A stretch of DNA of 50,606 nt from Pseudidiomarina indica. GTDB lineage: Bacteria > Pseudomonadota > Gammaproteobacteria > Enterobacterales > Alteromonadaceae. The stretch is from contig NZ_FMXN01000012.1 of NCBI RefSeq assembly GCF_900104245.1, positions 1 through 50,606 on the forward strand, written 5' to 3'. The notes under the pieces are model-generated. The model was given only the letters and a program-made list of their open reading frames with translations, did no database searches and was not told the origin of the DNA. This document shows positions 1,945-39,352 of the stretch, one piece after another. Position 1 is the stretch's first letter. The number at the start of each line of letters is the position of its first letter. The position numbers and the translations under genes were made by a program.

Positions 1945-2123
1945 TAACGAATTAGCTTTTTTCGGTGTTGTTTTACCTAGTAAAGGTGTTAAAATGCGCG
2001 CCCTAGGTGAAATTGGACTAAATTTGGTCAGCATGAACTTGTGACGAATTCGCTGTTATAGTGAGCGAGCGCAGTTCGTGCTGGTGTGAGATTAATCTTC
2101 CCTAACGAGTAGTGCGAACGCGT

Positions 2124-3464
2124 ATGATTACGATCAAGAAAGGGCTGGATATCCCGATTTCGGGTGCGCCCCAGCAAACAATCGAAGATGGTCAAGCCAT
2201 CTCCACCGTTGCCGTACTGGGTGAAGAGTATGTCGGTATGCGCCCAACCATGCATGTCAAGGTTGGTGACCGCGTTAAAAAAGGCCAACTGCTTTTCGAA
2301 GATAAGAAAAACCCAGGGGTTAAATTCACAGCACCAGCTGCGGGCGTTATTAAAGACGTATTGCGTGGTGAACGACGGGTATTGCAGGCCGTGATCATCG
2401 AGCTTGACGGCGATGAGCAGGAAACCTTTACCCGTTACGATAGCAAGGATCTCGCCAGTCTTGATCGCGCCGCTGTCGTTTCTCAATTGAATGATTCAGG
2501 ACTTTGGGTGGCACTTCGCACTCGTCCTTTTAGTCGTTCTCCAAAACTTGATGCTGAACCCACAGCGATTTTTGTGAATGCGATGGACTCAAACCCATTG
2601 GCTGCAGATCCAAGTGTGGTAATCACCGAACAGCAACAAGCCTTTGTGGACGGCTTAAAAGTGCTAGGCACCTTAACTCAAGGTCCCGTCTATGTGGTTA
2701 AAGCAGCAGCTGCAACCGTGGATACCGGCGATGCAAAAGTACAACTAGAAAGTTTTGCAGGTCCACACCCAGCAGGTCTTGTTGGTACTCACATTCACTT
2801 CTTACAGCCAGCGTCTATCGCGAAACCTGTGTGGCACATTGGTTACCAAGATGTTATTGCGTACGGTAAGTTATTTACCACCGGTGAATTATACACCGGT
2901 CGTGTGGTAGCGCTTGCTGGCCCAGCGGTGAACAAGCCACGGTTAGTTCGTACGCAGTTAGGCGCTAACTTACGTGACCTAACCCGTAATGAGCTGAGTG
3001 CCGGTGATGTACGTGTTATCTCAGGTTCGATCTTAAATGGTCATACAGCGGATGATGCACATCAATGGCTGGGGCGTTTCCACAACCAAGTGTCAGTGTT
3101 GGCTGAAGGAACAGAGAAAAAACTGTTCGGTTGGATTCGTCCAGGTGCTAATCAGCACTCTGTCACACGTGCATATCTCGGGCATTTGTCACCGAAGAAA
3201 TTGTTCCCAATGACCACCACAACGAATGGCTCCAACCGGTCGATGGTGCCAATTGGTAACTATGAGCGTGTGATGCCACTTGATATTTTACCCACCATTT
3301 TACTACGTGACTTGCTCTCTGGTGATTCCGAACAAGCGCAAAAGCTTGGCTGTTTAGAGTTGGATGAAGAGGATTTAGCGCTGTGTTCTTACGTTTGCCC
3401 CGGCAAATACGAGTACGGTCCGGTGTTACGTAAAATGTTGACCGATATTGAGAAAGAGGGCTAA
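2124..3464 (+). CDS. nqrA: Na+-translocating NADH:quinone reductase subunit A
   Basis: Peripheral quinone-site subunit of Na+-NQR, the respiratory complex that oxidises NADH, reduces ubiquinone and pumps sodium out. The N terminus [14 protein letters not shown] is the conserved NqrA start, so I chose ATG 2124 over the in-frame GTG at 2112. This gives 446 residues, the length of the Vibrio protein. A lipoyl-like segment follows ([19 protein letters not shown], about residues 47-65). A C-terminal CPGKYEYGP segment is also present. It is the first gene of nqrABCDEF, with nqrB two bases after its stop. The ribosome site before ATG 2124 is weak. I see no convincing promoter in the 180-bp upstream gap. 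Confidence 0.97.
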
Positions 3465-3466
3465 TC

Positions 3467-4666
3467 ATGGGCTTGAAGAATTTCCTCGAGAAGATTGAGC
3501 CGGACTTTGAAAAAGGCGGTAAGTACGAGAAGTGGTACTCCTTGTACGAAGCTGCGGCAACAATTTTCTACACACCAGGCAAAGTAACAACTGGTGCGAC
3601 CCACGTGAAAGACAGCGTGGATTTAAAGCGGATTATGATTTTGGTATGGATGATGACATTCCCAGCAATGTTCTGGGGTATGTACAACATCGGTAACCAA
3701 GCCGCATTGGCATTAATGAACGATTATCAATTGGCAGATATCTGGCAGGTTGGTCTATTTACCGCATTGGGCGGTGATTTAACCACTGCTGGTTGGGCCG
3801 GTAAAATGTTCTATGGTGCCTGTTTCTTCCTTCCTGTTTATGCCGTTACTTTTATTGTGGGCGGCTTTTGGGAAGTGGTCTTTGCGACGGTTCGTAAGCA
3901 TGAAATTAACGAAGGTTTCTTCGTTACTTCGGTGCTGTTTGCATTAACTCTACCTCCAACCATGCCTTTATGGCAGGTGGCATTAGGGATTACCTTTGGT
4001 GTCGTGATTGGTAAAGAAGTGTTCGGTGGTACAGGCCGTAACTTCTTGAACCCAGCATTAACCGGACGTGCATTCTTATACTTCGCATTCCCAGCATCAA
4101 TTTCTGGTGAGCAAGTATGGACCGCCGTTGATGGGTTTTCAGGAGCAACATTACTTGGTGAAGCAACCATCAGCACTGACTATATCGCAAACATGGATTT
4201 ATGGTGGAATGCGTTCATCGGTAACGTCCAAGGTTCGATGGGTGAAGTATCAACATTGATGATTCTGATCGGTGGTTTGGCCCTGATCTACTTCCGCATT
4301 GCATCATGGCGTATTGTCGCCGGTGTCTTCATCGGGATGGTAGCTTTGTCGCTGATGTTCAACGCAATTGGTAGTGATACCAATATGATGTTTGCGATGC
4401 CGTGGTATTGGCACTTAGTTGTGGGTGGCTTTGCGTTCGGTATGATGTTTATGGCAACCGACCCAGTATCAGCCTCATTCACCAATAAAGGTAAGTTCTG
4501 GTATGGCTTCCTCATTGGTGCCATGACGGTACTTATCCGTGTGGTGAACCCAGCTTATCCAGAAGGGATCATGTTAGCTATCTTATTCTCTAACGTGTTT
4601 GCCCCGCTGTTTGACCACTTTGTTGTTCAATCAAACATTAAACGGAGAATGGCACGCAATGGCTAA
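3467..4666 (+). CDS. nqrB: Na+-NQR subunit B (membrane, covalent FMN)
   Basis: Membrane subunit of Na+-NQR carrying a covalently bound FMN and forming part of the sodium channel and quinone site. The flavinylation motif appears as [12 protein letters not shown] with Thr228 as the expected acceptor, equivalent to Thr236 of Vibrio NqrB. Many hydrophobic helices are evident through the 399 residues. The start ATG follows AGAGGG and lies two bases after the nqrA stop. The 3' end overlaps nqrC by 8 bases, implying translational coupling. ApbE, encoded at 8016, is the family enzyme that attaches the FMN. Confidence 0.97.
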
Positions 4667-5441
4667 GAATAAAGATTCACTCGGCAGCACCTTATTTGTC
4701 GTGATCACACTCTGTTTAGTGTGTGCAATTTTCGTGGCTGGTTCTGCTGTCGGTTTAAAACCACTTCAACAAAAGAACGCGGCGTTAGATATGCAACGTA
4801 ACGTGCTCGATGCAGCTGGTTTGTTGACTCCAGAAACTGATGTGATTGCAGTATTTAACGAGCGTGTTGAAACTCGATTAGTTGACTTGCAAACACTTGA
4901 GTTCGTTGATGCGGCTTATGTTGGTGCACGTAGTGCTGCAGAATACGACCCTATCGCAGTTGCCAAAAAAGCTGAGTTAGGTAAGAAGTTGAGCAAAGAC
5001 GTTGATATTGCCAGCATCGGTTCCTTAGAGAACGTGACTAAACTGTACTTCATCAAAGATGACCAAGGCGCGGTAGAAACCGTCGTGGTGTACATTCGCG
5101 GTTACGGCTTGTGGGGTACTATGTATGGCTTAGTGGCTGTTGCTCCGGATATGAATACCATTAAAGGGTTCAAGTTCTATGAACACTCAGAAACGCCAGG
5201 CCTCGGTGGTGAGATTCAAAACCCGAGCTGGGTTGCTAAATGGCAAGGTAAAGAAATTTATGACAATGGCAAGGTTGCATTGAAAGTAACTAAAAACGTT
5301 ACCCGCCCAGCGCACGACATTGACGCTCTTTCTGGTGCAACCTTAACTAGTAACGGTGTGGATCACACAGTGAACTTCTGGTTCGGAGAGCATGCGTACG
5401 GTCCATTGTTCGATAAACTTCGCGAAGGGGAGCTGAATTAA
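4659..5441 (+). CDS. nqrC: Na+-NQR subunit C (covalent FMN)
   Basis: Membrane-anchored subunit carrying the second covalent FMN in the electron path from NqrF to NqrB. I placed the start at ATG 4659 ([15 protein letters not shown]), the conserved NqrC beginning, which gives 260 residues and an 8-base overlap with nqrB; a longer open frame begins at 4599 but lies inside nqrB. One N-terminal membrane helix (about residues 12-35) precedes the soluble FMN-binding domain. The flavinylation motif is [11 protein letters not shown] with Thr228 as the predicted phosphoester acceptor. The stop overlaps the nqrD start by one base. Confidence 0.97.
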
Positions 5442-6073
5442 TGGCTATGTCAAAAGAAGTTAAAGAGGTTCTTTTTGGACCGATTATTGCTAACAACCCA
5501 ATTGCCCTTCAGATTTTAGGTATCTGCTCGGCGTTAGCGGTGACCTCGAAGATGGAAAACACCGTGGTTATGTGTATTGCACTGACCTTGGTAACAGCAT
5601 TTTCGAACTTTTTTATCTCATTGATCCGCAATCATATTCCGTCAAACGTACGGATTATTGTGCAAATGACTATTATTGCTAGCTTAGTTATTGTGGTGGA
5701 TCAAGTGTTACGGGCATATGCCTATAACATTGCTAAAGAGCTCTCGGTATTCGTTGGTTTGATTATTACCAACTGTATCGTAATGGGTCGCGCTGAAGCA
5801 TTTGCAATGAAGAGCCCACCAGGATTGTCGTTCCTTGACGGTATCGGTAACGGGTTAGGGTATTCATTCGTATTGTTGACCGTTGGTTTCATTCGTGAGT
5901 TGTTTGGTTCAGGTAGCTTGTTTGGTTATCAGATCCTGTCACTCGCTTCGGAAGGTGGCTGGTATCAACCGATCGGTTTATTAGTGTTGCCACCAAGTGC
6001 ATTCTTTATTATCGGCGGGTTTATTTGGGTACTCCGTACCTTCCGTAAAGAACAAGTCGAGCCGAAGGAGTAA
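5441..6073 (+). CDS. nqrD: Na+-NQR subunit D
   Basis: Polytopic membrane subunit, homologous to NqrE and RnfE. In known structures NqrD and NqrE together hold an iron centre between cysteines half-way through the membrane. The conserved [19 protein letters not shown] segment with its cysteine is present (about residues 19-37), as is [17 protein letters not shown] with the second conserved cysteine. The start ATG overlaps the nqrC stop by one base and has GGGGAG 8 bases upstream; an alternative ATG two codons later is possible. Length is 210 residues, as in the family. Confidence 0.97.
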
Positions 6074-6083
6074 GGAGTAGACC

Positions 6084-6692
6084 ATGGAAGCTTATCTGAG
6101 TTTATTCATAAAATCGATTTTCGTAGAAAACCTGGCGCTTTCGTTCTTCTTAGGGATGTGTACTTTCTTGGCGATTTCCAAAAAGGTACAAACAGCGTTC
6201 GGTTTAGGTGTGGCGGTAGTGGTCGTGTTATCGATAGCTACACCAATTAACGCAGCTGTATATCAGTATTTATTAGCACCAGGTGCATTAAACTGGGCAG
6301 GTTTTCCTGATGTCGACTTGAGTTTCTTACGTTTCTTAACCTTTATCGGTGTTATCGCGGCATTGGTACAGATTCTTGAAATGCTATTGGACAAATATGT
6401 TCCAGCACTGTACAACGCATTGGGAATTTTCCTTCCGTTAATTGCGGTGAACTGTGCGATTTTCGGGGGCGTGTCCTTTGCCATCGAGCGTGACTATACA
6501 ATCACTGAAAGCTTCATTTACGGTTTCGGTGGTGGTATCGGCTGGATGTTCGCAATCGTTGCTTTAGCTGCGGTTCGCGAAAAGTTGAAATATGCCGATG
6601 TTCCAGATGGATTACGTGGCTTGGGCATCACCTTTATGACGGTGGGGCTGATTGGTTTAGGGTTTATGTCATTCTCTGGCATTTCACTCTAA
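6084..6692 (+). CDS. nqrE: Na+-NQR subunit E
   Basis: Polytopic membrane subunit, inverted-topology partner of NqrD around the membrane iron site. The N terminus ([16 protein letters not shown]) and the later [13 protein letters not shown] segment carry the two conserved cysteines. Length is 202 residues against about 198 in Vibrio. A good AGGAG site precedes ATG 6084, ten bases after the nqrD stop. A 44-base gap separates it from nqrF. Iron loading of this pair depends on NqrM in other species, and nqrM is present at 9053. Confidence 0.97.
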
Positions 6693-6736
6693 TGACCCGG
6701 TTACGAAAAAACGTATAACTATAGAGGTAGAAGTCG

Positions 6737-7978
6737 ATGCAAGGGCAAGACTGGACAATTATAGCGCTTGGCGTAGGCATGTTTACCTTGATTGTACTAA
6801 TTTTAGTCGCGCTGATTATGGTGGCGCGCTCAAAATTGGTCCCTCAAGGGGATGTCGAGATTCTAATTAATAACGATGAAAGTAAGAAAATCACCACGCA
6901 GCCGGGCTCCAAATTACTTGGTGCTTTAGCGAACTCAGGTATTTTCGTGTCATCAGCTTGTGGTGGCGGTGGCTCATGTGGTCAGTGCCGCGTCGTCGTC
7001 CATGAGGGTGGTGGTGATATTCTACCAACTGAACGCGATCACATTAACCGCCGTGAAGCTCGTGAAGGTTGTCGTTTAGCCTGTCAGGTAAACGTGAAGC
7101 AAAACATGAAAATTGAACTTCCTGAAGAGGTGTTCGGTATTCGTAAGTGGGACTGTATCGTTAAGTCCAACGATAACGTTGCAACCTTTATTAAAGAGTT
7201 TGTGGTGCAGCTGCCAGAAGGTGAGGAAGTTCCATTCCGCGCTGGCGGGTACATTCAAATTGAATGTCCTCCACACCATGTGAAATACAAAGATTTCGAT
7301 ATTGCGGAGAAATTCCGTGGTGATTGGGAACACTTTGGCTTCTTTAACTTAGAATCGAAAGTGGACGAAGAAGTTGTTCGTGCGTACTCGATGGCAAACT
7401 ATCCGGATGAAAAAGGCATTATTATGCTAAACGTTCGGATCGCGACGCCACCACCTCGTGACTTAAGCTTACCGCCAGGTTTGATGTCGTCGTATATCTT
7501 TAGCCTGAAGCCAGGTGATAAGGTGACTATTTCTGGTCCGTTTGGTGAGTTCTTTGCGAAAGACACCGACGCAGAAATGGTATTTATCGGTGGTGGAGCA
7601 GGGATGGCACCAATGCGGTCACATATTTTTGACCAATTACGTCGCCTGAAGTCGAAGCGTAAAATGACGTTCTGGTACGGTGCTCGTTCGAAGAAAGAAA
7701 TGTTCTACGTTGAAGACTTCGATATGTTGGCGCGTGAAAACGATAACTTTGAATGGCATGTTGCCTTATCCGATCCACAACCTGAGGATAACTGGGAAGG
7801 CTATACTGGTTTCATCCACAACGTGTTGTATGAAAACTATCTGAAGGATCATGAAGCGCCGGAAGATTGTGAATATTACATGTGTGGACCACCCATGATG
7901 AACGCTGCGGTCATTAAGATGCTTAAAGACCTAGGTGTTGAAGAAGAAAATATCTTATTAGATGACTTCGGTGGTTAA
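6737..7978 (+). CDS. nqrF: Na+-NQR subunit F (NADH dehydrogenase, 2Fe-2S, FAD)
   Basis: Electron-entry subunit: takes hydride from NADH on FAD and passes electrons to a 2Fe-2S centre. An N-terminal membrane helix (about residues 7-30) is followed by a plant-type ferredoxin domain with Cys75, Cys81, Cys84 and Cys116 ([11 protein letters not shown] ... GCRLAC). The FAD motif RAYSMANYP and the NADH motifs [12 protein letters not shown] and [10 protein letters not shown] follow. Length is 413 residues, about six more than Vibrio NqrF. AGAGG precedes the ATG. This is the only classical Fe-S subunit of the complex, which gives meaning to the sulfurtransferase fusion at 9299. Confidence 0.98.
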
Positions 7979-8015: not shown

Positions 8016-9038
8016 ATGAAGATGAACTTATCATCGACTCTGCGGATTTGGCTGGCCCTGATAGGGCTAGCCTTTTTCGTTTCATGCACACATGCTCCCC
8101 AGCAAATCAGCATTAGCGGTGAAACCATGGGGACGACCTATCACATACGCTATGTCACCGCCAATCCGTATCATTCGCCAGAACGTGTGAAGGAACGGGT
8201 TGATCTTGTGCTGGAACAGATTAATAGCCAGATGTCGACCTATGATCCTAACTCCGAGTTGTCTTTGTTTAATCAACGGATGACGACAGAGCCAGTGGTG
8301 GTCTCTCGGGCACTTGAAACGGTGATTCACCGAGCTTTGCAAATTGCAGAAGAGACCGATGGCCTGCTGGATATTACGGTTGGGCCCTTAGTGAACCTGT
8401 GGGGCTTTGGGCCGCTCGGAAAACCCGAACAAGTGCCGACCGAAGAGCAATTAGCGGCAACCCGAGCAAAAGTTGGCTATCAACATCTCACCGTCGAAAA
8501 TCATCAAGTTACCAAGGCGGTTCCTGATCTCTACGTGGACTTATCCACCATTGCAAAAGGCTATGGAGTTGATCGCGTTGCCGTCTTATTGGACCAAATG
8601 GAGATAAAAAACTATTTGGTAGAAATTGGCGGAGAAATGCGGATGCGCGGTTCTAAGCCGGGAGAGCAACCGTGGCGGATTGCGGTCGAGCAGCCGGTCT
8701 CCCTCGAACGGTCGGTGAACCGAATTATCGAGCCTGGTAACAATTCAGTCGCCACTTCAGGCGATTATAGAAACTACTTTGAAAAGGATGGGGTTCGGTA
8801 CTCTCATATTATCGATCCTCGCACCGGTTATCCCATTCAGCACAATCTCGTTTCTGTGACCGTTATCACAGAAACGTGCATGGATGCGGACGCGTATGCC
8901 ACCGCGTTAACGGTGATGGGGCCGGAAAAAGCTTTGCAGTTTGCGAATGAAAAAGGGCTTGCAGTGTTACTTGTCACCCGTGAAAATGGCGAATATAAAG
9001 AGTACACTAGTACCGCATTCAAACGATTTGAGCAGTAG
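8016..9038 (+). CDS. apbE: FAD:protein FMN transferase ApbE (lipoprotein)
   Basis: Flavin transferase that cleaves FAD and attaches FMN through a phosphoester to threonine in SGAT motifs, here expected to be NqrB Thr228 and NqrC Thr228. The signal peptide ends in a lipobox (FFVSC), placing the enzyme on the periplasmic face. Family motifs seen are SGETMGTTYHIRY, DLSTIAKGYGVD, EIGGEMRMRG and the C-terminal TCMDADAYATAL metal-site segment. Length is 340 residues. It lies 37 bases after nqrF in the same direction and is almost certainly co-transcribed. AAGGTG precedes the ATG. Confidence 0.96.
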   Translation: MKMNLSSTLRIWLALIGLAFFVSCTHAPQQISISGETMGTTYHIRYVTANPYHSPERVKERVDLVLEQINSQMSTYDPNSELSLFNQRMTTEPVVVSRALETVIHRALQIAEETDGLLDITVGPLVNLWGFGPLGKPEQVPTEEQLAATRAKVGYQHLTVENHQVTKAVPDLYVDLSTIAKGYGVDRVAVLLDQMEIKNYLVEIGGEMRMRGSKPGEQPWRIAVEQPVSLERSVNRIIEPGNNSVATSGDYRNYFEKDGVRYSHIIDPRTGYPIQHNLVSVTVITETCMDADAYATALTVMGPEKALQFANEKGLAVLLVTRENGEYKEYTSTAFKRFEQ

Positions 9039-9052
9039 CTCAGGAGGTCCAC

Positions 9053-9286
9053 ATGGGCGTATTTATCGCAGTATTCGTCATCATGTTGGTGGTGATTTTA
9101 GGCATGTCAGTGGGCTACATTGTCCAGCGTAAATCTTTGTCTGGGAGTTGTGGCGGCATTTCATCACTCGGCATGGAAAAAGCCTGTGATTGCAAAGATC
9201 CTTGCGATGATAAGAAAGCTCGGATGGCTGCCGAGGAGCGCGCCGCTAAGCTAAAAGAATGGCAAAAAAACCAGATTGATAGCTAG
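9053..9286 (+). CDS. nqrM: NqrM, Na+-NQR maturation factor
   Basis: Small DUF539 protein of 77 residues: an N-terminal membrane helix (about residues 3-24) followed by a cytoplasmic tail with four cysteines (SGSCGG, ACDCKDPC). NqrM is needed in Vibrio for incorporation of iron between NqrD and NqrE; its cysteines are thought to carry the metal. A near-perfect AGGAGG site precedes ATG 9053, 14 bases after apbE. The next gene starts 12 bases after the stop, with its own ribosome site overlapping the nqrM stop, suggesting coupling. Confidence 0.95.
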   Translation: MGVFIAVFVIMLVVILGMSVGYIVQRKSLSGSCGGISSLGMEKACDCKDPCDDKKARMAAEERAAKLKEWQKNQIDS

Positions 9287-9298
9287 GAGTTGTTGAGC

Positions 9299-11446
9299 AT
9301 GGTCACCCCGGTACAAATTCGGCCTAAAGCGGAAGAAATCTATCTTGATTGCAATGCGACGACACCGGTGTTGCCCTACATCACTCAAGCCGTTAAACAT
9401 GTCATGGAACATGTTTTTGGCAATCCTTCTAGCAGCCATATCACCGGGCTCCAAGCACGTTATATTCTCGAGAACACACGCCGTTTAGGGCGCCAAGTTG
9501 TGGGCGCTCACAGTGGGCGTTTATTTTTTACCAGTGGCGCAACTGAAGGGATTCAGACGGCAGTCTTGTCAGCCCTAACGGGAGCTCGTTCTACTCAGGG
9601 AGCAGGAACACGTCGTTGGTTACTCTATGGAGCCACTGAGCATAAAGCGGTTCCCCAAGCCTTAGCCCATTGGAATCAAGTTCTGCAATTGAATGCTGAG
9701 CTAAAAGCCATCCCCGTGGATAGCCACGGGAAATTGGATTTAGATTTTATTGCCGAGCATGTGGGTGCGGCTTATATGATTTGCACCATGGCGGTCAACA
9801 ATGAGACCGGTGTGAGGCAAAATTTGGCGGCCTTAGAAACGGTGATTCGGCAGCATAACCCTGATGTGCCTTGGATGGTCGATTGCGTCCAAGCGTTAGG
9901 AAAAATGTGTCTCGATTTGGCCGATACGACGATTGATTACGCACCTTTTAGCGGACATAAATTGTATGCTCCAAAAGGCATCGGCTTTATGTACGTGCGT
10001 GACAGTGCTCCATTCACCCCTTTAATTATTGGCGGTGGACAAGAATTAGGGCAACGCTCAGGCACCGAGAACTTACCAGGAATAGCTGCGTTGCATGCGC
10101 TATTTGAGTTACTACTGAACCCAGAGCAATCGGTGTTCCAACCCGAATCCATTTTACTCCAGTACCGCCAGCAGCTGCTGCATGCCTTACAAAGCGCTTT
10201 CCCAACACTGGAGCTCAATCATCCATTGGCAGAATCGATTCCAACCACGCTGAACTTCTCCGTGCAAGGGGTGCCTTCGCGCGACATTATGGATGTGTTT
10301 GATGCCGCTAATATTCGGGTGAGTTCAGGATCAGCATGTAGTTCAGGGGTCACTCGCAGCTTTGTACTCGATGCGATGGGGCTGGCCGATTGGCGTTCCA
10401 GCTCCGCCATTCGTCTTTCGTTTGGGCCGGCAACCACTGCTGATACCATAGCCGCCGCTTGCGAGCGTATTCAAGAAGCTGCCCAAGCACTGCGGCAGTC
10501 GTGTTTGTTGGTGGCGGATACCAACGAAGACATCGATAGTGACCTTGACGGTATTGTGCAATGGCGATTTGGTAGCGCCTGCTGTTATTTAGTTATTGAT
10601 AAAGCCGCAGGTGAAATGGCGGTGATTGATCCGGTCGCTGAATTAGCCGAACGTATCGAACGCTTGGTGGCATGCCAACGTTATCGTGTCAAAGCCGTGC
10701 TAACTACTGAGCCCCATGGTCCGCAGAGCGCTGCGGCGATGCTGGCGAACCTGTTGTGTGCCAGTGGGTGTGAAACCGAACGGGACGCGGTGGGCTGGCC
10801 GGCAACGGCGACTGCAGTTTGTGCCGCTCCAGTAGGGTGTGATGTGACCACCGAAGGCTGCCTGACAGTGGGGCAACGGCGTTTATATCGGGTCGGTACG
10901 CGGGCACCGATTTATTTGTTGAGCTCCCCATTGGCTGGAGCAATGACATCCCCCCACGTCGATTTTGCCTTTATTGGCGAGCATCACCATAGCCCTTTCT
11001 TGCAGCAAGCGGTGACCGAGAAGACCCTGTTGTTATCCCGTTACGACGAGGCTTTCCAAGTGGTAGAAACACTTCCGGAGCTGGCTGGAATGAATCATGC
11101 TGCGCCCCTGATTAATGTCACCATCGATCAGCAGCAACAATGGTTGCAGCAGCCACAAACTTTGTTGGTAGATGTGCGTGAACAGCAAGAGCACCGAGTT
11201 CGACGGTTATCAGTCGATGCGGAAGTGGTGAATGTTCCCTTAACGAGGTTAGCGCAGTTTATTCAACAAAGTCCGGCCGCTTATCGTCAGCGGCCGATTG
11301 TGTGCGTGTGCCGCTCAGGCCACCGCAGCGCGGTGGCAGCTCAAGTAATGGCTCGTCATGGCTTCCAACAAGTCAGTCATGTGGCGGGTGGAACGGCATT
11401 ACTCATCGAAGCTGATGCGAGCGACGAATCCATCTTGACCCACTAA
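9299..11446 (+). CDS. Three-domain sulfurtransferase: cysteine desulfurase / degenerate metallo-beta-lactamase fold / rhodanese
   Basis: Residues 1-400 are an IscS/NifS-type PLP enzyme: the PLP lysine is Lys221 in SGHKLYAPKGIGF and the persulfide cysteine is Cys347 in SSGSACSSGVTRS. Residues about 418-600 resemble the start of persulfide-dioxygenase metallo-beta-lactamases (CYLVIDKAAGEMAVIDPV). Where that family has THxHxDH this protein has TEPHGPQ, so most metal ligands are lost. Residues about 605-715 are a rhodanese with active loop CRSGHR and Cys671. Start ATG 9299 has AGGAG nine bases upstream; in-frame TTG codons at 9290 and 9293 are less likely. It is the last gene of the nqr run. I infer sulfur mobilisation and relay, possibly for NqrF, but tRNA thiolation or sulfide handling are alternatives. 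Its 3' end overlaps the opposite-strand gene by 48 bases. Confidence 0.85.
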   Translation: MVTPVQIRPKAEEIYLDCNATTPVLPYITQAVKHVMEHVFGNPSSSHITGLQARYILENTRRLGRQVVGAHSGRLFFTSGATEGIQTAVLSALTGARSTQGAGTRRWLLYGATEHKAVPQALAHWNQVLQLNAELKAIPVDSHGKLDLDFIAEHVGAAYMICTMAVNNETGVRQNLAALETVIRQHNPDVPWMVDCVQALGKMCLDLADTTIDYAPFSGHKLYAPKGIGFMYVRDSAPFTPLIIGGGQELGQRSGTENLPGIAALHALFELLLNPEQSVFQPESILLQYRQQLLHALQSAFPTLELNHPLAESIPTTLNFSVQGVPSRDIMDVFDAANIRVSSGSACSSGVTRSFVLDAMGLADWRSSSAIRLSFGPATTADTIAAACERIQEAAQALRQSCLLVADTNEDIDSDLDGIVQWRFGSACCYLVIDKAAGEMAVIDPVAELAERIERLVACQRYRVKAVLTTEPHGPQSAAAMLANLLCASGCETERDAVGWPATATAVCAAPVGCDVTTEGCLTVGQRRLYRVGTRAPIYLLSSPLAGAMTSPHVDFAFIGEHHHSPFLQQAVTEKTLLLSRYDEAFQVVETLPELAGMNHAAPLINVTIDQQQQWLQQPQTLLVDVREQQEHRVRRLSVDAEVVNVPLTRLAQFIQQSPAAYRQRPIVCVCRSGHRSAVAAQVMARHGFQQVSHVAGGTALLIEADASDESILTH

Positions 11447-37055: not shown

Positions 37056-37355
37056 ATGGCAGCAGTGGGTAATCAGGGCTTATTTCAGGGGTATGTGAGT
37101 GATTTAGAACAGGTCTTTGACGATTTGGTCGCGACCGGTACCGATGACGAATTGTTTGCTAGTGGCTATTTACGGGGCCACTTTGATCTCGTTGTGGCCC
37201 AATTAGAGTTACAAGAACAAGCTCAGACTGAGGCAATTTTACCGGCGGTACATCAGTCGGTGGAACAAGCGAAGCATGAGCTTTCTCCTACAGATATGGC
37301 GCACATTCAAGCGTTGCTTCACCGTCTTGCAGACGTTCCGGTGCCAACCGCTTAA
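37056..37355 (+). CDS. yfcL: YfcL family protein
   Basis: Small soluble protein of 99 residues matching E. coli YfcL, best seen in TDDELFASGYLRGHFDLVVAQLEL (about residues 28-51). Function unknown. GAGG precedes ATG 37056. It lies next to mnmC and fabB, as in E. coli, but here it is convergent with mnmC and the last 68 bases overlap mnmC on the other strand. Confidence 0.88.
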   Translation: MAAVGNQGLFQGYVSDLEQVFDDLVATGTDDELFASGYLRGHFDLVVAQLELQEQAQTEAILPAVHQSVEQAKHELSPTDMAHIQALLHRLADVPVPTA

Positions 37356-39210
37356 CCAGCTCAGCACTCAGCGGTAAGGGTTCACCCAGCCATTGACTGA
37401 CCAGTAACTCTGCACATAGCGGAGCGCTGGTGAACCCCCGTGAGCTGAGTCCTCCGATAATTCCCAATGATGCGGATAACCAACCGGCCATCGGTAAGTG
37501 ATCGCGGGTGGTATGCCGCAGTGCGGCACGATCTGCCACAGGCACTAAATTGTGCGTCCAAGGCTGTTGCACATCGCTCTGTAGCTGGGCTAAGTTTGTT
37601 GCAGTATCTTCGGGTGCCAGCTCGCGATAATGCTGGGGATCAAACTGCCGTTGGTAGGTTGCCCCCACACAGTGGCAGGCAGTCTCGGAGTCGAGTACAG
37701 GCGTAAAATATCCTTTGTAGCAGACCACCACCGGACATTCTTGGCTGGTGCTATTGGCAGCAACTTGAGTGACTTGGCCGCGAACCGCTTCAGTTGCAAT
37801 ATGCCATTGCTGTAATAAGGGGAGCAGGCCAGCACCAGCGGCAAGAATGAGGGTATGGGCGTGGAATTCCTCGCCGTGTTCGCTGGTTAATCGCCACCCG
37901 CCATCTGTGGTGGGAGTGACTGCTTGGATACTGACGCCTTGTTGTACCGTTAAGCGTTCACCACATTGGGTCAGCAGATGATGGACCAATTGCGGCGGCG
38001 CGACCCAGCCTGAACTGGGATACCACAACGACGGTACGGCCGGTAACTCGGCCCAAATTTGTTGGGTCTGATCCGCCTCGAGTGAAGTCACCATGGTGGG
38101 GGCATAGACCCCATGTTCAGCCAACTTCTGTTGCCGTTGTAAACGTTTTGCTTGAGTGGCTAACTGTACCATTCCACAACCATGCCAATAGGGTTTACCT
38201 ATCCCTTGATAAAATTGACGGGCATGATCAAATGCACTCAAGTGAAAGCGGCTGAGTGGACTTAACTCTACTTGCAACAACGGATACACAGCACCTTGGG
38301 CGTTGCCTGAGGCACCATCGGCAATTCCTTCGCTCAGCAAGTGAACCTGATAGCCTCGCTGGGTGAGCGACCAAGCCACACAAGCGGCAGCAATTCCGCC
38401 ACCAACAATGGTGACAGGAACACCAGGGTCGGGCCGAGCTGCTGGCGTCACCGAAGGCGTTGCGGTAGGTAACATGCCGTGCAGCATTTCTCGTTTGTGA
38501 CCGAAGCCTTTGCTTTTTTTGACCTCAAAGCCTGCTGCCTGCAACCCTCGTCGTACGGAACCCGCAGCTGTGAAGGTGGCAAAAGTTCCTTGCTCGCGAC
38601 AGCTGGCCGCCATGGCTTGATACAAACTGTCTTGCCACATTTGAGGATTTTTATCAGGAGCGAAGCCATCCAGAAACCAAGCATCAACGGTTTGCTGTGC
38701 GTAGGGCAACCAATGCGGTAACTGCTCATGGAGATCACCGAACCATAAATCCAAGGTCACGCGATGGTGGTGAAACTGGATACGGTGACAACCGGCGTGA
38801 GGCGCGGGATAGGCTTCTAGCAGCGCTTGGCAGTATTGGCTTAGGTGAGGAAACGCCGCCATCGCTTGGGCGATATCAGTGGGTGCCATTGGATATTTTT
38901 CAAAGGACACGTAATGCAAGCGTTGGGATGCAGGTGCCGTTCGTTCGAACAAATCCCAGCAGGCTAAAAAGTTTAGGCCTGTGCCAAAGCCAGTTTCAGC
39001 AATTGTAAATGGTGTATTGCGGGGTGTTTGCCAGCGTTCAGGGAGCCCATTATGTTGCAAAAACACATAGTTGGTTTCCGCTAACCCATTTTCATTGTTA
39101 AAATAAATGTCATCAAATTGGTCGGCGATAGGAATGCCAAGTGCGTTGAACGTGACGTTCGCGTGCTGAATGGGAGCATACTTGACTGAATTTGGCTTGT
39201 TTTGACTCAC
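37288..39210 (-). CDS. mnmC: Bifunctional tRNA mnm5(s2)U34 biosynthesis protein MnmC
   Basis: Completes the mnm5U modification at the wobble position of several tRNAs. The N-terminal half is the SAM-dependent methyltransferase (ETGFGTGLNFLACW, WFLDGFAPDKNPQMW). The C-terminal half is the FAD oxidoreductase that removes the carboxymethyl group (VTIVGGGIAAACVAWSL at about residue 265, GASGNAQGAVYPLLQ, GGLSSRGFTSAPLCAELL). I chose GTG 39210 (VSQNKPNSVKYAPIQ), which has GGGGA five bases upstream; the frame opens at GTG 39249. About 640 residues, near the usual 660. It is divergent from fabB, with 142 bp between the starts. Confidence 0.95.
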   Translation of the reverse strand: MSQNKPNSVKYAPIQHANVTFNALGIPIADQFDDIYFNNENGLAETNYVFLQHNGLPERWQTPRNTPFTIAETGFGTGLNFLACWDLFERTAPASQRLHYVSFEKYPMAPTDIAQAMAAFPHLSQYCQALLEAYPAPHAGCHRIQFHHHRVTLDLWFGDLHEQLPHWLPYAQQTVDAWFLDGFAPDKNPQMWQDSLYQAMAASCREQGTFATFTAAGSVRRGLQAAGFEVKKSKGFGHKREMLHGMLPTATPSVTPAARPDPGVPVTIVGGGIAAACVAWSLTQRGYQVHLLSEGIADGASGNAQGAVYPLLQVELSPLSRFHLSAFDHARQFYQGIGKPYWHGCGMVQLATQAKRLQRQQKLAEHGVYAPTMVTSLEADQTQQIWAELPAVPSLWYPSSGWVAPPQLVHHLLTQCGERLTVQQGVSIQAVTPTTDGGWRLTSEHGEEFHAHTLILAAGAGLLPLLQQWHIATEAVRGQVTQVAANSTSQECPVVVCYKGYFTPVLDSETACHCVGATYQRQFDPQHYRELAPEDTATNLAQLQSDVQQPWTHNLVPVADRAALRHTTRDHLPMAGWLSASLGIIGGLSSRGFTSAPLCAELLVSQWLGEPLPLSAELVKRLAPERLQDGEATLECAPYL

Positions 39211-39352
39211 TGTAATCCCCACGGAAGACAAGAAAACCTTGATGGACACCTGTTAGTGTATCAAGAATGCGTTAGAATGCGTGGAAAGCAGACCACTTTT
39301 CTTGCCAATTAGGCTACCATACAGCAGCGCTCAGCAAGTACAGGATATGAGA

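Follow-up and report, generated by a model that had tools for sequence, protein, structure and literature searches.

The DNA window analyzed here (50,606 nt of Pseudidiomarina indica) carries, directly behind nqrM, a gene encoding a cysteine desulfurase, a degenerate persulfide-dioxygenase domain, and a rhodanese on a single chain. The loss of the iron site, the extra cysteines that are conserved, and the location after nqrM were all confined to one clade, and the protein appears to be a repurposed member of a family with three domains. With moderate confidence, we interpret it from its sequence as a persulfide relay from cysteine to an acceptor, descended from an enzyme that would also have been able to oxidize persulfide. 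The gene and its upstream neighbors are located as follows:

2112–7978, plus strand: nqrA–F; nqrA, nqrD, nqrE, and nqrF passed NCBIfam cut-offs, and nqrB and nqrC were assigned by Pfam domain and position
2112–3464, plus strand: nqrA
3467–4666, plus strand: nqrB
4656–5441, plus strand: nqrC
5441–6073, plus strand: nqrD
6084–6692, plus strand: nqrE
6737–7978, plus strand: nqrF
8016–9038, plus strand: apbE, flavin transferase (Pfam ApbE, E 8.9e-96)
9053–9286, plus strand: nqrM (Pfam NqrM, E 4e-21)
9285–9289, plus strand: AGGAG, a putative Shine-Dalgarno-like element overlapping the nqrM stop codon (9284–9286), 9 nt ahead of the ATG at 9299
9299–11446, plus strand: cysteine desulfurase–degenerate persulfide-dioxygenase domain–rhodanese fusion, open frame from ATG 9299, 715 amino acids

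The frame given in the initial annotation was open over its whole length on translation, and Pfam calls agreed with the placement of the gene after apbE and nqrM. The fusion starts 12 nt past the nqrM stop codon. No terminator-like or promoter-like match was found on the plus strand of the nqrM–fusion interval, and the fusion gene is apparently a member of the nqr operon. Elsewhere in the window, on the minus strand (37291–39249), Methyltransf_30 and DAO domains were detected, the arrangement of MnmC, an enzyme that acts on thiolated tRNA in the synthesis of mnm5s2U. Within the fusion, the following domains and residues were distinguished:

9338–10450, plus strand: group I cysteine desulfurase domain, residues 14–384 (Pfam Aminotran_5, E 5.1e-55; NifS/IscS-type matches)
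9350–9352, plus strand: Cys18, specific to the nqr-linked clade (31/32 sequences vs. 0/48 others among the matches listed)
9959–9961, plus strand: Lys221 in SGHK, invariant in 27-row and 45-row family alignments
10337–10339, plus strand: Cys347 in SSGSACSS, invariant in the same two alignments
10505–11122, plus strand: middle domain, residues 403–608, with an ETHE1/PDO-type metallo-beta-lactamase (MBL) fold predicted and no iron ligands (profile comparison, structure model, ligand-position alignment)
10706–10726, plus strand: TEPHGPQ, T470–Q476, at the position of THxHxDH in relatives, with Glu471 replacing the ligand His
10820–10861, plus strand: C508-x5-C514-x6-C521, a cysteine motif confined to the nqr-linked clade among the matches listed
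11126–11395, plus strand: rhodanese domain, residues 610–699 (Pfam, E 1.6e-9, 38.5 bits against a cut-off of 22.2)
11309–11311, plus strand: Cys671 in the rhodanese loop CRSGHR, invariant in the 27-row and 45-row alignments

Lys221, Cys347, and Cys671 sit where the initial annotation had put them, and His115, Asp195, and Gln198 were invariant in the family alignments as well. We take Lys221 to be the PLP Schiff-base lysine and Cys347 to be the desulfurase catalytic cysteine. The N-terminal part is a group I desulfurase, with an aminotransferase class V domain, the PLP lysine, and the catalytic cysteine loop. The C-terminal part is a rhodanese with a cysteine in the CxxGxR loop, and both catalytic cysteines are present on one chain, as in a natural desulfurase–rhodanese (CD-Rhd) fusion. 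The likeness to IscS/NifS consists of the domain, the PLP lysine, and the active-site cysteine loop. In the NCBIfam IscS/NifS equivalog comparison, the window protein was under every desulfurase cut-off shown (NifS, the best, 258.3 vs. 530.75; IscS, 207.1 vs. 643.2), whereas the IscS of the same genome scored 773.2 against a cut-off of 548.

Nothing significant was detected by Pfam between the Aminotran_5 and rhodanese domains. Profile comparison of this middle segment with the intact persulfide-dioxygenase domain of relatives gave 99.9% (E 7e-33), and there was 37% identity over residues 10–103 of the intact domain (E 1.7e-14). The structure model, which covers the middle domain and whose input alignment included intact relatives, had a pLDDT of 89, and its best PDB matches were ETHE1 and the persulfide dioxygenase–rhodanese fusion BpPRF (Foldseek to 4chl_B, E 1.9e-8, TM 0.56 by query). 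The profile of the nqr-linked middle domains alone reached ETHE1 only at E 0.12, and that of the intact middle domains reached Myxococcus ETHE1 (4ysb) at E 2.3e-35. Structure prediction and structural search thus returned an ETHE1/PRF fold and not something unrelated, and together with the profile match they bear out the dead ETHE1-type MBL fold proposed initially. The TEPHGPQ segment had been pointed out where THxHxDH was expected; relatives indeed have THGHADH there. In the alignment, the first ligand His is replaced by Glu, the His of GHT falls into a gap, and the Asp is replaced by Glu. The window protein has the MBL fold in the model and lacks the 2-His-1-Asp iron site of persulfide dioxygenases. 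The domain is also shorter, 211 residues vs. 274 in an intact relative from Shewanella gaetbuli (L196), about 60 residues being gone. Since the iron-ligand positions are lost, this protein should no longer be able to oxidize sulfur to sulfite.

When 295 genomes from the order were searched, 32 strong fusion homologues (E < 1e-160) were obtained and, besides them, eight plain desulfurases (E 1e-51 to 1e-57). The fusion was found in 39 of 118 genomes of the family and in 25 of 26 genomes of the genus (in pieces in G312); it was absent in G309. In a class-wide sample, it occurred in one of 369 genomes, that of P. indica itself. Spread beyond the order was therefore rejected, and within the sampled genomes the three-domain fusion family is confined to this order. 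A scan of named genomes, a set overlapping with the order genomes, gave at least 80 fusion loci, of which the best 80 were compared. Among the matches listed were Pseudidiomarina, Idiomarina, Thalassotalea, Thalassomonas, and Shewanella, and further Pseudoalteromonas, Rheinheimera, Arsukibacterium, Alkalimonas, Ferrimonas, and others.

Genes of nqr precede the fusion in 32 of these best 80 loci, 31 of them with a readable frame, and the readable ones among the matches listed belong to Idiomarina and Pseudidiomarina. In the desulfurase-domain tree of the best 80 named loci, one branch (100/99) parted the 32 nqr-linked rows from the 48 other fusion rows; the lone IscS outgroup of this 81-row tree has a very long branch and was placed among the nqr-linked rows. 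In a 38-row tree (36 fusion rows and two outgroups), a single branch (99/99) set the 16 nqr-linked rows apart from all other rows, outgroups included. The trees were built without L198, whose frame is broken, and without L034, a duplicate reference.

The state of the iron site followed the same division of the best 80 named loci. None of the 31 readable nqr-linked loci has either ligand histidine, and only L148, L164, and L167 keep the aspartate, which is lost in the other 28. Away from nqr, all three ligand positions were kept in 47/48 loci and the full HxHxDH motif in 34/48. Eleven loci of Thalassotalea and its kin, among the matches listed, were intermediate: the Asp-His of the motif was lost and the ligand positions were kept, except in L194. 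Loss in every readable nqr-linked locus among the matches listed ruled out a sequencing or frame error as the source of the degenerate motif. The intact motif would be the older state, judging mainly from its match to ETHE1 and PRF. Since the C-terminal half of the intact L196 matched BpPRF (E 2.4e-21) and ETHE1 (E 8.6e-11), and the intact-domain profile matched ETHE1, the ancestral architecture was likely cysteine desulfurase–persulfide dioxygenase–rhodanese. The initial annotation had rightly described a desulfurase, a dead ETHE1-type fold, and a rhodanese on one chain but missed that this form is derived within a mostly motif-intact family.

The same clade is distinguished by 20 fixed positions of its own among the matches listed, three of which are cysteines. 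Cysteines corresponding to C508, C514, and C521 were present in 30, 27, and 30 of 32 nqr-linked sequences, respectively; the whole motif occurred in 27/32, and 5/32 were without it in full. Away from nqr, among the matches listed, C508 and C521 were found in 0/48 sequences and C514 in 0/49 (49 including and 48 excluding L034). L198 was left out of the motif counts and L054, whose frame is masked by an antisense frame, of one motif comparison. The nqr-linked protein of Pseudidiomarina taiwanensis (L158, 677 amino acids) has a shortened middle domain and no tri-cysteine motif.

The association with nqr claimed initially was conserved among close relatives. In three genera, each of the 28 loci other than that of the window was nqr-linked (24 in the own genus, three in g117, and one in g106; L119 shows only an apbE fragment at the contig end). 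The nqrM–fusion gap, calculated from automatic start codons, was 0–185 nt (median 38), below 100 nt in 29 of the 31 readable nqr-linked loci of the best 80. Beyond this clade, the association did not hold. An nqr gene was nearby in 0/48 of the remaining loci within the available flanks (best 80 named loci), in 0/42 loci re-tested by tblastn at E 1e-8, a threshold that a divergent nqrM may escape, and in 0/31 loci of a further comparison; an order-wide association was rejected on these counts. Flanks end early at contig ends, the shortest locus being 4,963 bases. A constant follower of nqrM in other lineages was likewise dropped, as the gene there varied among six loci (names read by eye).

By genome content, nqrM accompanied the fusion in 30/32 genomes and was present in 199/263 others (Fisher p 0.02, kinship ignored), so that co-occurrence is weak and most genomes with nqrM are without the fusion. 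The complete Nqr cofactor cluster envisaged initially stands as a hypothesis for one lineage and is no rule for Alteromonadales, in which nqrM occurred in 229 and the fusion in 32 of the 295 genomes. As for a maturation factor of Nqr, operon-like linkage was found in one clade only, and the fusion is not needed wherever nqr is. In G309 (L138:1836-4115, L231), nqrA–F, apbE, and nqrM are followed by a YCF48-like gene, leaving a clean natural empty site between nqrM and the latter. A desulfurase of G309 (L124:6049-8113) is DndA-like, below the DndA cut-off, and beside a PAPS-reductase-like gene; the pair is perhaps a DNA phosphorothioation island and was not read as compensation for the missing fusion.

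A separate desulfurase was also retained in 24 of 25 fusion-bearing genomes of the genus, the exception, G312, being 77% complete. The genome of P. indica itself (2.2 Mb) has, besides IscS, a complete isc operon with IscR, IscU, IscA, HscB, HscA, and ferredoxin, each above its cut-off, and IscS was the sole other desulfurase-like match at E 1e-3. No other persulfide-dioxygenase match was found in this genome at E 1e-5, and a second such enzyme taking over was rejected; a weak additional match was present in 5/26 genomes of the genus.

Sulfur- or iron-sulfur-related neighbors occurred in some lineages among the neighborhoods examined. Away from nqr, iscX (PF04384) was by the fusion in eight of the best 80 named loci, 3' of it in seven loci from Thalassotalea or Thalassomonas and in one further genome (L187, L171, L172, L176, L177, L181, L193, L185), and in eight genomes of the family the sole IscX match lay no more than about 2 kb from the fusion. 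Downstream of the fusion in L038, by visual inspection, are genes resembling malic enzyme, ndk, and rlmN; the malic-enzyme assignment was checked in L035. TusA was found two genes upstream in a Pseudoalteromonas locus. In G039 (L064:8936-13158), the genes after the fusion are lipB-like (octanoyltransferase domain) and lipA-like (lipoyl synthase domain) and belong to another sulfur-inserting pathway. In L048:7171-12466, an intact-motif fusion is flanked upstream by a PALP (cysteine-synthase-like) gene and downstream by a SLAC1/TDT-type anion channel, of a family that includes sulfite exporters; these neighbors would fit a cysteine-to-sulfite route. Unrelated neighbors elsewhere were DEAD helicase, patatin, FadR, DUF386, and cupin genes.

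These data leave considerable room, somewhat short of an even chance, for a general persulfide donor or a producer of H2S or low-molecular persulfides (for tRNA thiolation or thiol persulfides) that stands in the nqr transcription unit by chance, the linkage having arisen once and persisted by descent. The linkage is confined to one side of a single branch, possibly one event; G309 has nqr and no fusion; and the neighbors elsewhere are varied (iscX, TusA, lipB/lipA-like, PALP, and unrelated genes). The YCF48-like, SDR, and lipase-like genes downstream of the fusion also keep their order in relatives, so linkage to nqr may be plain synteny. However, the short gap to nqrM was found in all 31 measured loci among the matches listed, and L123 (g106) keeps this adjacency (92 nt) though apbE is no longer found between nqrF and nqrM. 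The 20 clade-specific fixed positions, cysteines included, also suggest that the job of the protein changed in the same clade.

It is improbable that the middle domain is a degenerate remnant, decaying between two working enzymes. Besides the losses of the iron ligands and about 60 residues described above, the domain is mostly gone in L123, where the rhodanese loop stays as CRSGGR, and the frame is broken in one MAG locus (L119/L198). On the other hand, dN/dS of the dead domain was 0.012–0.091, similar to both flanking domains (six distinct close pairs drawn from nine genomes; dS of the middle domain reached 2.5), 52/206 of its columns were conserved in 30 or more of 32 sequences, and the structure model was confident. 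An oxygenase that is still active, or a hydrolase using a different metal site, is very improbable: the MBL fold is kept in the model, but none of the six histidine columns of the window's middle domain was kept in at least 27 of 32 sequences, the GHT segment is missing, and the available text of PMC6060420 assigns the THxHxDH residues an important part in the activity of a PDO studied there. Because that source counts these residues important, the Thalassotalea-type intermediates may be inactive too.

The persulfide relay is the most economical reading, since both catalytic cysteines are invariant and the oxidizing site is lost. The N-terminal desulfurase, with its intact PLP and Cys347 sites, would take the sulfur of L-cysteine as a Cys347 persulfide. 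The persulfide would then pass to Cys671 of the rhodanese and on to a protein or thiol acceptor; desulfurase-to-rhodanese transpersulfidation has been shown for the natural Pseudorhodoferax fusion, according to the available part of PMC8931425. The middle domain appears to descend from an iron persulfide dioxygenase and presumably no longer oxidizes sulfur to sulfite; its predicted fold is kept, under purifying selection in the six close pairs. It is now probably a spacer, a docking surface, or a cysteine way-station via C508/C514/C521. These features suggest that the lineage switched from destroying sulfur to delivering it.

In the last step, the relay may serve the maturation of the Nqr iron-sulfur centers. 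Because the gene stands 0–185 nt behind nqrM in 31/31 readable loci among the matches listed, these centers are the likeliest customer; delivery to them, judged by gene position, is possible though doubtful. According to the available text of PMC12174285, NqrM seems to be needed for the membrane [2Fe-2S] to be inserted between NqrD and NqrE, and a sulfur donor inside the same operon would plausibly make sense from its position. We consider it unlikely that an ancestor of Idiomarina/Pseudidiomarina converted a persulfide oxidizer into a dedicated Nqr sulfur-delivery machine, stripped of its iron site, in which the tri-cysteine motif holds persulfide or iron next to NqrM and the operon desulfurase, not general Isc, builds the NqrDE [2Fe-2S] center.

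Desulfurase–rhodanese and dioxygenase–rhodanese fusions are already known. BpPRF is an iron enzyme. It is without a desulfurase (PDB 5ve3/5ve4/5ve5), and the window protein is without the BpPRF-type iron-ligand positions. ETHE1 (4chl, human; 4ysb, Myxococcus) shares the MBL fold with the window protein, in which all three iron-ligand positions are lost. The Pseudorhodoferax CD-Rhd fusion (WP_056898193.1; PMC8931425) likewise has cysteine desulfurase and rhodanese with both catalytic cysteines on one chain, but it is a 54-kDa protein, and the available text of that paper mentions neither a middle domain nor an nqr context and has no occurrence of the word dioxygenase. No paper describing a desulfurase–dioxygenase–rhodanese triple fusion was found in the open-licence literature. 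The intact three-domain form would lead from cysteine to sulfite within a single protein, and the family would form a natural series from an architecture able to make and burn persulfide to one only making and carrying it, the change being confined to one branch with all members behind nqrM among the matches listed. In Vibrio, apbE and nqrM lie downstream of nqrA–F, and the available parts of PMC12174285 and PMC6209661 describe no sulfur donor there. At nqr-linked loci, the fusion stands in line with the NqrM and ApbE maturation genes and is a concrete candidate for the sulfur source of the Nqr [2Fe-2S] centers.
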